From Chryseobacterium indicum (GTDB lineage Bacteria; Bacteroidota; Bacteroidia; Flavobacteriales; Weeksellaceae): a stretch of 64,000 nucleotides of DNA. Shown one piece after another: positions 9,299-64,000 of the stretch. The notes under the pieces were generated by a model. The model saw only the letters and a program-made list of their open reading frames with translations. It searched no databases and was not told the origin of the DNA. The stretch lies in contig NZ_JACSGT010000001.1 in the NCBI RefSeq assembly GCF_021504595.1, positions 248,001 to 312,000 on the forward strand, given 5' to 3'. The first letter of the stretch is position 1; each line of letters starts with the position of its first letter. The position numbers were made by a program, and so were the translations under genes.

Positions 9299-10168
9299 AC
9301 TCTTTTATTTTGTCATTGCGAGAATCGAATGCGACGAAACAATCTCATTCTCACATTATTTAATAAATTTTTATTTTCAACAATCGTAAACTTCCATTCT
9401 CCATCTTCCAACTTCCTTCTTTTTTAGGAGCTTTTTCCCGCTTTCCGCTGTATCTTTTGTTCAGCTTTGCTTCACAAAAGGATGCCGCTACAATCGAGGC
9501 TATGAGAAGGAAACGGTTAATTTCTACGAGTTAATCATGAACTTTCCAATATATAATATTTATTTGTAAAAGAAAATTCATTCCTCATCGATTAGAAATC
9601 ATCAATTATCAGTCATCACTTATCACTTATCACTTATCACTTATCACTTATCAATCATAATTAAAGACCACCCCGTCAAAAATTCATTCGAATTTTCGCC
9701 ACCCCTCCGGAGGAGGGGAATTGTTGCGGCTTTTTTCAATATTATCCTTATGATATAATAAGAATGACAAAGATACTGTCATTTGCTGAGTGAAACGCCT
9801 TTAGGAAAGGAAAATAAACACAATATTTTATTGTTTTCTTTTTTTTATTGATTTTTTGCTTTTCGCTGTATCTTTCAATCATCAATCATCAATCATCAAT
9901 CATCACTTATCACTTATCACTTATCACTTATCAATCATAATAAAAGACCACCCCGTCAAAAATTCATTCGAATTTTTGCCACCCCTCCAAAGGAGGGGAA
10001 TTGTTACGTCTTTTTCAACATTATCTTGTCGTACAAATACGGAGAACAAATATACTGTCATTTGCTGAGTAGAACGCCTTTGCGAACGGAAAATATCCGC
10101 AATACTTTCAAAAAGACATTGCGACCATTGCGTTAAAAAAAACATTTCACTTTCTAATTGTCTAGGTA
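9299..10168. repeat. Gene-free stretch with a duplicated repeat of about 220 bp
   Basis: No credible gene. Two copies of one block lie at about 9609-9828 and 9889-10108. Each copy starts with ACTTATC tandem units (four or more), then AGACCACCCCGTCAAAAATT, a hairpin CCCCTCC..GGAGGGG, and the shared segment ATACTGTCATTTGCTGAGT followed by AACGCCTTT. The copies differ at scattered positions. The CCCCTCC..GGAGGGG hairpin may act as a terminator-like or repeat-extragenic-palindrome structure. Confidence 0.75.
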
Positions 10169-62279: not shown

Positions 62280-63479
62280 TTACAAAAGTTCAAAAAAACT
62301 TCTTTTTCCGATCTTAATTTTTATTCCTTTCTCTAATTTAATCTCTTCATTCGGATCTGTTAATTTGATATTGTTGATCTGAATTCCACCGTTTTCAATC
62401 AGTCTTCGGATGAAAGATTTACTTTCGTTACATTTCAGCTGATGGCATAATTCCGATAAGACTATTTTGTGCTGAATATGGTGGAGAGAGTCAATGAAAA
62501 CCGGTTCAAAAACTTTTTCTTCAAAATTTTTACTCTGGAACTGGTTCATGAAAAATAACTCGGCATTTTCAGCTGATTCTGCATCATGATATTGTGTGAT
62601 AATATTTTTAGCGATCAGCTTTTTAATATTCATCGGGTTTTGACCATCATTGATGTTTTGTTTTAAACGTTCTTTCTCTTCGGAAGAAAAATCCGTGGTA
62701 AGATCAATAAATTCGTCAATCAAAGAATCCGGAATGGACATCGTTTTCCCAAACATTTCATTCGGCTCGTCGGTTAATCCGATAATGTTGTTTAAAGATT
62801 TGCTCATCTTTTCCTTTCCGTCAAGACCTTTCAGCAAAGGCATACACATCACAATCTGCGGAGATTTTCCGTGACTTTCCTGCAATTGTCGCCCCATCGT
62901 ACAGTTGAAAAGCTGGTCGGTTCCGCCCATTTCAATGTCACAATTAATCTGTACAGAATCAAAACCCTGCAAAATAGGGTATACAAGTTCGTGCATGGCA
63001 ATGGGAGTGTTTTCAGAAAACCTTTTACTGAAATCATTTCTGTGCATCAGTTGTGCAACTGTCACTTTTGACATCAGTTGGATCACTTCCGAAAAATTCA
63101 GCGCATCCAGCCATTCAGAGTTAAAGACAATTTTTGTTTTTTCAACATTAATAACTTTGGAGAGCTGACTGATGTATGTTTCTGCATTATGATGAACTTC
63201 TTCAGCGGTTAAAGGTTTTCTCGCCTTGTTTTTTCCTGTAGGATCGCCGATTCTTGCCGTAAAACTTCCGACAATAATTACAATCTGATGTCCCAGATCC
63301 TGAAACTGTTTCAGTTTTTTCAAAACAACTGCGTGTCCAAGATGCAGATCCGGAGCAGTGGGATCAAACCCAAGTTTGATGATTAATTTTCTGTTTTCTT
63401 TTTCGGCTTGCTGAATTTTCTCTTCCAGTCCGTTTTCCGGCAGAATAATTTCTGCATTCTCTTTTAATTTTCTGATCAT
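62280..63479 (-). CDS. tyrS: Tyrosine-tRNA ligase
   Basis: 399 aa. Class I signatures: HLGHAVVLKKL (HIGH motif) near residues 47-57 and KMSKSLNN (KMSKS) near 224-231. Specificity region with MGGTDQLFNCTMGRQLQ. The C-terminal S4 RNA-binding domain (from about 335: KSFIRRLIENGGIQINNIKL) is present. Upstream (minus strand) are a promoter, a Tyr-rich leader ORF and a terminator-type hairpin that end 20 nt before the start codon, so its expression is probably controlled by attenuation. Confidence 0.95.
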   Translation of the reverse strand: MIRKLKENAEIILPENGLEEKIQQAEKENRKLIIKLGFDPTAPDLHLGHAVVLKKLKQFQDLGHQIVIIVGSFTARIGDPTGKNKARKPLTAEEVHHNAETYISQLSKVINVEKTKIVFNSEWLDALNFSEVIQLMSKVTVAQLMHRNDFSKRFSENTPIAMHELVYPILQGFDSVQINCDIEMGGTDQLFNCTMGRQLQESHGKSPQIVMCMPLLKGLDGKEKMSKSLNNIIGLTDEPNEMFGKTMSIPDSLIDEFIDLTTDFSSEEKERLKQNINDGQNPMNIKKLIAKNIITQYHDAESAENAELFFMNQFQSKNFEEKVFEPVFIDSLHHIQHKIVLSELCHQLKCNESKSFIRRLIENGGIQINNIKLTDPNEEIKLEKGIKIKIGKRSFFELL

Positions 63480-63498: not shown

Positions 63499-63528
63499 GA
63501 AAAAACCCGAACAAAAACTGTCCGGGTT
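63499..63528 (-). terminator. Terminator hairpin in the tyrS leader (attenuator)
   Basis: On the minus strand: AACCCGGACA-loop-TGTTCGGGTT, 10 bp with one G-U pair, then a T-run, ending about 20 nt before the tyrS ATG. Because tyrS follows directly, it is read as a conditional terminator. Confidence 0.75.
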
Positions 63529-63565
63529 CTATGATATTTTTAGATTAAATTTCTACTGAATATGG

Positions 63566-63649
63566 TTATAGAAGTCTTCCCGAACGATCATCCGGGTAAT
63601 AATAATTGCTGAAAAAAGGAAGACGCAATAGGTTATTTAAGTGCTTCAT
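63566..63649 (-). CDS. Tyrosine-rich leader peptide of tyrS
   Basis: 27 codons, MKHLNNLLRLPFF, S-N, then three Tyr codons (TAT TAT TAC, residues 16-18 at 63596-63604), then P-D-D-R-S-G-R-L-L and stop at 63566-63568. The hairpin CCCGGA..TTCGGG (63578-63595) lies directly after the Tyr codons, within the ORF. The promoter element TATATTTG ends 5 nt before the ATG. Together with the downstream terminator this is the classic form of an attenuation leader for Tyr supply. Confidence 0.7.
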   Translation of the reverse strand: MKHLNNLLRLPFFSNYYYPDDRSGRLL

Positions 63650-63654
63650 GAGTG

Positions 63655-63662
63655 CAAATATA
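63655..63662 (-). promoter_or_regulatory. -7 element for the tyrS leader transcript
   Basis: TATATTTG on the minus strand, 5 nt before the leader ATG; the leader peptide mRNA would be leaderless or nearly so. Confidence 0.65.
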
Positions 63663-63671
63663 GAATTTTTA

Positions 63672-64000
63672 TTAAAAAATCATTTGTTTTTTCTTTAGAA
63701 AATCTTCAACTTTTCTTTCAAAATCATGGAAATTCTGTACAAGAAAGGCACCGCTTCTTTTGTCTGAAAATTCTTTATCATTAAGCAGTAAATAAGTCTT
63801 TTTCAATTGAAGGTAACACAGCAAAACAAATTGTTTTATTTTAATTTCGAACTGTATTTCCAGTTTAAAATTCAACTGTCCTCCGTAAGATTCTTCAAAA
63901 TCATATACAGAAATAATTGCTTTATGCTGTTTATCCTTTATTCGTTTTATTTCAAATTTGCATCCTCCCGGTTCGTTGTACCAGATAAATTCAGTTTCCC
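63672..64000 (-). CDS. Partial hypothetical protein, 5' end outside the window
   Basis: The frame stays open from the window edge to the stop at 63672 (at least 109 codons). Visible segments include YNEPGGCKFEIKRIKDKQHK, VYDFEESYGGQLNFKLEIQ and, near the end, KEFSDKRSGAFLVQNFHDFE. No motif recognised. The apparent TTG start at 63873 is internal and should not be used. Confidence 0.6.
   Translation of the reverse strand, partial: ETEFIWYNEPGGCKFEIKRIKDKQHKAIISVYDFEESYGGQLNFKLEIQFEIKIKQFVLLCYLQLKKTYLLLNDKEFSDKRSGAFLVQNFHDFERKVEDFLKKKQMIF

Follow-up and report, generated by a model that had tools for sequence, protein, structure and literature searches.

The trp, his, pheA and pheST attenuators of Escherichia coli are built from control codons, a 1:2, 2:3 and 3:4 helix logic and a terminator that lies before the gene. 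The leader described here, which precedes the accessory tyrosyl-tRNA synthetase (TyrRS) gene tyrS2 of Chryseobacterium indicum, shares the control codons and the terminator placement of these systems and, in most loci, probably also the helix logic, but differs from them in that its target is an accessory synthetase, its 5′ UTR is predicted to be near-absent, and the N-terminus of its leader is conserved as protein. The arrest peptide TnaC is another point of comparison, with conserved residues before its stall site. In the accessible part of the TnaC literature, translation of the leader stalls ribosomes and controls the downstream operon, as is proposed for the tyrS2 leader; the tyrS2 leader differs in that its control codons correspond to the enzyme under regulation, and it has no known ligand.

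Closest in purpose is the auxiliary TrpRS1 of Streptomyces coelicolor, likewise an auxiliary synthetase whose gene, as far as the accessible part of its description goes, is under ribosome-mediated transcriptional attenuation (Vecchione and Sello 2010). Its leader reportedly has Trp codons. The two leaders differ in amino acid and in phylum (Trp and Actinomycetota in S. coelicolor, Tyr and Bacteroidota here). The tyrZ gene of Bacillus subtilis is also a second TyrRS gene and, in the text open to us, is controlled through an RNA that binds tRNA instead of through translation of a leader; the available part of a review states that TyrZ protects B. subtilis against D-Tyr through higher selectivity (PMC9437257).

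Within Bacteroidota, leader-peptide attenuation is suspected in general terms in the accessible part of one paper (PMC7366714). For Flavobacterium psychrophilum, the accessible portion of another reports “strong clues” for such attenuation before amino-acid biosynthesis operons, and structured 5′ UTRs in aminoacyl-tRNA synthetase mRNAs, the latter given there without detail (PMC9723704). These candidates, reported in that portion for biosynthesis operons, belong to the same bacterial class as the tyrS2 leader, and they weaken the remark, made in the initial annotation of the window (the whole 64,000-nt stretch of C. indicum DNA analyzed), that no described case was known in Bacteroidota. By title and abstract we found no printed description of the tyrS2 leader; subscription papers and supplements were beyond reach. 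Judging from the sequence and its relatives, the tyrS2 leader is very probably a trp-type ribosome-mediated transcription attenuator that senses Tyr-tRNA charging and controls the accessory TyrRS. The trp-leader logic that had been proposed for the locus is supported by two conserved Tyr codons (16 and 17) and by alternative pairing.

Results

Layout of the locus

The features of the system lie on the minus strand (Table 1). The −7 box, the 27-codon ORF, the Tyr codons 16 to 18, hairpin 1 and the terminator 20 nt before the synthetase gene were all found where the initial annotation had put them. The antiterminator GTTCGGG/CCCGGAC that it proposed was also recovered over 7 bp, one of them G-U. 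This layout is not due to chance, because it recurred in 144 distinct leader-to-terminator strings (genome and named loci combined).

The TATATTTG box is separated from the leader ORF by 5 nt, and in 103 of 111 loci a TAnnTT[TAG] box lay no more than 40 nt ahead of the leader ATG. According to the accessible part of PMC9723704, Bacteroidota differ in their promoters and do not depend on Shine-Dalgarno sequences, and the TAnnTTTG box of F. psychrophilum occupies −12 to −5; by this rule the predicted +1 falls at approximately 63650, one base before the leader ATG. From this predicted start we infer that the tyrS2 message is nearly leaderless, with a 5′ UTR of approximately 1 nt.

Hairpin 1 (CCCGGAT/GTTCGGG) has 7 bp and a 4-nt loop (−7.9 kcal/mol). 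The terminator stem GAACCCGGACAG/TTGTTCGGGTTT, which is followed by a T-run, has 12 bp and a 3-nt loop according to the stem scorer and 11 bp and a 5-nt loop according to RNAfold (−14.8 kcal/mol). The gap between the terminator and the tyrS2 ATG (63479) is 20 nt here and averaged 23 nt, measured from the stem end, over 111 loci. Since a gap of approximately 20 nt leaves no room for a promoter, expression of tyrS2 from here would require readthrough.

Directly downstream of tyrS2 lies the gene for a Rv2179c-like 3′-5′ exoribonuclease (PF16473; 61693-62214, minus strand); 54 of 150 loci have a relative in their flanks. Elsewhere in the window are a TerD-domain protein (PF02342; 60318-60992, plus strand) and a Flavo-1 RNA (RF01705, 63.7 bits; 9430-9505, minus strand), the latter being the sole hit in the window to pass an Rfam gathering threshold.

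Table 1 Features of the tyrS2 leader region, with coordinates in the window
Feature	Position	Strand	Basis or remark
−7 promoter element TATATTTG	63655..63662	-	sigma-A type of Bacteroidota; read from sequence
Leader peptide ORF, 27 codons + stop, MKHLNNLLRLPFFSNYYYPDDRSGRLL	63566..63649	-	translation
Region 1, GUCUUCC, inside leader codons 9-11	63618..63624	-	pairs with region 2
Control codons Tyr 16 and 17 (conserved) and 18 (not conserved)	63596..63604	-	TAT TAT TAC
Hairpin 1, 5′ arm, CCCGGAU	63590..63596	-	stem search and RNAfold
Region 2, GUUCGGGAAGAC	63574..63585	-	GUUCGGG + GGAAGAC, partner of region 1
GUUCGGG of region 2: antiterminator 5′ strand, doubling as 3′ arm of hairpin 1	within 63574..63585	-	
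Region 3, CCCGGAC: antiterminator 3′ strand and terminator 5′ arm	63520..63526	-	pairing, alignment
Intrinsic terminator hairpin (regions 3:4)	63503..63529	-	U-run to 63500
tyrS2, accessory tyrosyl-tRNA synthetase, 399 aa, regulated gene	62280..63479	-	TIGR00234, PF00579, S4

Identity and distribution of tyrS2

The tyrS2 product scored 358.4 bits against TIGR00234 (cut-off, 113.8) and contains PF00579 and S4 domains. The genome encodes two TyrRS, and tyrS2 is 27% identical to the other copy; the gene behind the leader is the accessory copy and not the main tyrS. Read by eye, the region upstream of the other TyrRS gene has a −7 box, 27 nt from box to ATG, and no leader. The structure relatives of TyrS2 included 6bqy (E 2e-97) and 1h3e (1e-95), far ahead of 1jii (1e-31) and 2ts1 (2e-29); the 6bqy/1h3e group presumably includes B. 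subtilis TyrZ.

Within the genus, tyrS2 was found in 83 of 118 Chryseobacterium genomes (whole in 81, interrupted by a contig end in one and truncated after 87 codons in another), and some TyrRS match was found in all 118. An intact leader precedes the truncated copy (loci L154 and L084, G112:C3), and the truncation points to dispensability of the gene. Outside the genus, the gene was found in 18 genomes of the family sample (197 genomes) and in 8 of 249 genomes of genus g35, which belongs to the same order. The best 80 of 141 named loci came from Chryseobacterium, Weeksella, Faecalibacter, Vaginella, Empedobacter, Flavobacterium, Arenibacter, Gelidibacter, Gynurincola and some MAG records; F. 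hibernum is one of the Flavobacterium holders. Overall, tyrS2 is patchy in other Flavobacteriia and is also held by Gynurincola, a member of another class (Chitinophagia, order Chitinophagales), and by two unplaced MAG records. The closest named relatives among the matches listed were Chryseobacterium sp. ZHDP1 (98% identity) and C. mucoviscidosis (96%).

An order-wide search of 395 sampled genomes yielded 22 holders (E ≤ 1e-60), none outside the genus; this search was undersampled, since later scans found holders in Flavobacterium, Arenibacter, Gelidibacter and g35. Sorting the longest open stretches upstream of tyrS2 at 145 loci gave 39 clusters, of which the largest had 52 members. Together, the patchy spread and the varied neighbors suggest horizontal movement or frequent loss.

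TyrRS of the tyrS2 type were common in other orders (a match at E ≤ 1e-70 in 272 of 395 genomes, including three genus members), and Weeksellaceae genomes mainly carry the other TyrRS type. Identity of the other-order relatives (e.g., L246-L272) was 43–48% in the 27 loci compared. No short ORF bearing YY or PFF was found within 260 nt upstream of 27 such relatives in the phylum (27 listed; 272 genomes matched), as judged from automatically chosen start codons.

Coupling of the leader to tyrS2

The leader was present in 111 genome loci (112 minus one that was cut off) and in all 80 named loci (best 80 of 141). A profile built from 28 of the 111 leaders matched the C. indicum genome at 63566..63649 (E 2e-14), with no other match at E ≤ 0.01. 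Strong matches (E ≤ 2.2e-11) were obtained in 82 of the 118 genus genomes, which comprise the 81 that have whole tyrS2 plus the genome that has the truncated gene; the 83rd holder, which had no strong match, is the one whose tyrS2 is cut by a contig end. Four more genus genomes showed weak matches, all of them without tyrS2. In one of these four, G109, a relic was observed (L153; G109:C1:540409-540495, minus strand): a decayed leader with LLLTFSP at the core position, which keeps a remnant of the terminator 5′ arm.

Across the phylum, where scoring was limited to 20 candidates per genome, the profile matched 11 of 395 genomes at E ≤ 0.01. Three of these matches were strong, all in genus members, and the remaining eight were weak (E 6e-4 to 9e-3). 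A codon-pattern scan of the C. indicum genome for [LF]R[LF]PFF gave 11 matches, of which, by eye, only the known leader qualified. A later search added 8 loci: six with the leader core, one with HLTFF instead of RLPFF (L238) and one with no core (L242). The last also lacks the GUUCGG strand and keeps the Tyr pair at codons 16-17 and the terminator.

Tyr codons and the leader peptide

Tyr 16 was present in 144/144 and Tyr 17 in 142/144 distinct strings. Counted by locus, codon 16 was TAT in 150/150, codon 17 was a Tyr codon in 148/150 (TAT, 85; TAC, 63) and codon 18 was a Tyr codon in 45/150. The initial annotation had named three consecutive Tyr codons and proposed a check for conserved YYY in related upstream regions; the first two Tyr codons and the alternative pairing proved to be conserved (144/144 for the pairing, with UA and CG forms of one pair), but the third Tyr did not. 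Both conserved elements were kept in Chryseobacterium, Weeksella, Empedobacter, Flavobacterium, Arenibacter, Gelidibacter and Gynurincola. The leader consensus is ILR-L/V/F-P-F/Y-F-x-x-Y-Y, with the Tyr pair fixed at residues 16-17 and the first Tyr always encoded by UAU. In L024 and L113, the second Tyr codon is replaced (Asp and Leu, respectively) and only the first Tyr is kept. Codon use inside tyrS2 (TAC, 242; TAT, 201) does not explain the invariant TAT at codon 16 (63604-63602).

Changes in codons and amino acids were counted on the enzyme tree (FastTree, 110 tips). Leader codons 2-17 showed 229 codon changes and 60 amino-acid changes (ratio 0.26), whereas codons 18-25 showed 181 and 159 (ratio 0.88); the ratio for the whole TyrS2 enzyme was 0.30. 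Leader residues 2-17 are under purifying selection at the amino-acid level, approximately as strong as that on the enzyme, and it does not extend beyond the Tyr pair. From its leader, a classical attenuator requires no more than the control codons, so the conservation of residues 2-17 suggests that the nascent chain may contribute.

It is accordingly conceivable, although we consider it unlikely, that the nascent chain MKHLNSILRLPFFSxYY interacts with the exit tunnel and either causes or modulates stalling on the Tyr pair, perhaps in answer to a ligand or drug instead of, or besides, tRNA charging. Such a stall would be a variant of the trp-type attenuator and not its opposite, because the RNA switch downstream would be the same. 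Besides the difference in ratio, the position counts agree with it: set against a simple neutral expectation, K2/L4/I7/L8, which lie outside the described helices, had 5 amino-acid changes of 55 (36 expected) and F12/F13 had 1 of 18 (15 expected), and codons 18-25 had 159 (131 expected). The start codon was exactly 7 codons ahead of the LRLPFF block in 111/111 loci, and the core was retained in Gynurincola. Thus, amino-acid conservation before a fixed, predicted stall site was found, with two exceptions among the 8 later loci. Those exceptions, L238 and L242, keep the Tyr pair and the terminator and speak against a strict need for the peptide core. The positions H3/N5/S6 (28 of 56; 46 expected) and S14/E15 (21 of 39; 32 expected) were much freer, codons 9-11 are constrained by pairing too, and the codons at the predicted stall site are Tyr codons ahead of a tyrosyl-tRNA synthetase gene, all of which count against a role of the chain.

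Alternative pairing

An antiterminator of at least 6 bp and a terminator stem of at least 7 bp were present in 144/144 strings. In 111/111 loci the antiterminator strand G[TC]TCGG started 12–16 nt after the second Tyr codon, and the six core pairs were formed, the second pair being UA in 95, CG in 15 and UG in one. On the tree, exchange between UA and CG needed 3 changes in one strand and 4 in the opposite one, so that it represents few events. Helix statistics were calculated from a 63-sequence alignment, chosen from 94 representatives, and 500 shuffles. In the antiterminator, 95.7% of 441 cells were paired and 24 cells were changed on both sides, and 0/500 shuffles were as high; slid controls were 2–54% paired. 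Two of the five antiterminator measures did not exceed the shuffles (both-side-changed pairs: 2, 232/500; pair types: 6, 233/500). The terminator was paired in 97.0% of cells, with 60 cells changed on both sides (reached by 0/500 shuffles) and both-side changes in 7 of its 11 pairs.

Two loci, L060 and L061, have indels that put the codons behind the Tyr pair out of frame and leave the antiterminator strand intact; it is the RNA, not the peptide, that is kept there. A functional small protein encoded by the leader ORF, with the terminator serving for constitutive damping only, is a highly improbable alternative: it would account for the purifying selection on residues 2-17, but not for the end of that selection at the Tyr pair, the two leaders that are frame-shifted after it or the co-variation of the antiterminator strands.

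Helix 1:2, a candidate anti-antiterminator, would join leader codons 9-11 (GUCUUCC) to the GGAAGAC just after the antiterminator strand, and all seven pairs were present in 76/111 loci. Of its cells, 82% were paired in the 63 sequences (slid controls, 33–69%); this percentage was matched by 7/500 shuffles, and the number of both-side-changed pairs was matched by 485/500. Codon choice in the helix ranked in the best tenth of random synonymous versions in 100/150 loci and in 40/78 distinct strand pairs, and its energy (−10.1) was close to that with swapped partners (−8.8). The helix was poor in some subclades (L004, L006 and L008 types). These patterns suggest that helix 1:2 would give trp-like logic in most loci and would be weak in some subclades.

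The inner hairpin was of the CCCGG/CGGG class in 109/150 loci and a Tyr-codon hairpin in 29; neither was found in 12, of which 11 came from the Empedobacter group. For hairpin 1, 75.7% of cells were paired in the 63 sequences (matched by 3/500 shuffles, against 498/500 for both-side-changed pairs), and sliding it by −1 column gave a nearly equal covariation score. The proposed hairpin 1 is present here, but as CCCGG/CGGG it is mainly a Chryseobacterium form, one of several clade-specific forms, and the candidate helix 1:2 comes in addition. In the Empedobacter-type loci L125, L131 and L136, the bases after the Tyr codons (CGUACAA etc.) fold with bases beyond the leader stop (5–7 bp), which may be a possible substitute for hairpin 1.

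Folding with and without a ribosome

The ribosome footprint in folding was 16 nt from the P-site codon. With a ribosome at codon 16 and the RNA cut just downstream of region 3, an antiterminator of at least 5 bp was predicted in 111/111 loci. The complete RNA without a ribosome gave the terminator in 109/111 and the antiterminator in 2/111. When the RNA was truncated after region 3, the minimum free energy structure without a ribosome still contained the antiterminator in 52/111, indicating that the anti-antiterminator is weak or variable.

Other explanations of the terminator

A T box or a protein-controlled terminator would follow the example of B. subtilis tyrZ, which is under a T box and a MarR regulator in the accessible part of its literature. 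We regard this as very unlikely at the present locus. No Rfam family matched the leader at gathering score, the best sub-threshold scores being 27.7 bits for His_leader (gathering score, 49) and 21.4 bits for Leu_leader (gathering score, 50), and the T box was absent from the six matches up to E 1; moreover, a T box would leave the conserved Tyr-codon ORF unexplained. The least probable reading of all, that the hairpin terminates an upstream gene, starts from a same-strand ORF that ends at 63672, but is already contradicted by the locus comparison, because that ORF is in the flanks of only 4/150 loci and the terminator is in all, and because the promoter and the leader lie between.

Discussion

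In the trp-type attenuator that we favor, RNA polymerase would start a few nucleotides upstream of the short leader ORF. When Tyr-tRNA is plentiful, ribosomes would pass Tyr codons 16-17 and leave, so that region 1 pairs with region 2 and the inner hairpin folds. With region 2 occupied, region 3 would pair with region 4, and transcription would stop before tyrS2. When charged tRNA-Tyr is scarce, for instance through low tyrosine or because the main TyrRS is blocked, a ribosome would stall at codon 16 or 17, and the nucleotides under its footprint would include the inner hairpin's 5′ arm together with some of region 1. Pairing of region 2 with region 3 would follow, the terminator could not form, and tyrS2 would be made.

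More tentatively, and with less than even confidence, we suggest a hybrid regulator, in which a trp-type attenuator is joined to a conserved nascent-chain leader. The peptide in the tunnel and tRNA charging would together set the stall, and the unit would have spread through Bacteroidota together with the accessory TyrRS gene, an inducible backup.

That the leader is conserved at the amino-acid level poses a question outside classical attenuation, namely, whether the nascent chain tunes the stall. If an inhibitor of the main TyrRS affected TyrS2 less, the leader could, speculatively, be a natural sensor of such compounds. For Bacteroidota, the locus provides a concrete, very probable ribosome-mediated attenuator with comparative support, tied to a backup synthetase, and through it a single reporter would suffice to test tRNA-charging control in this phylum.
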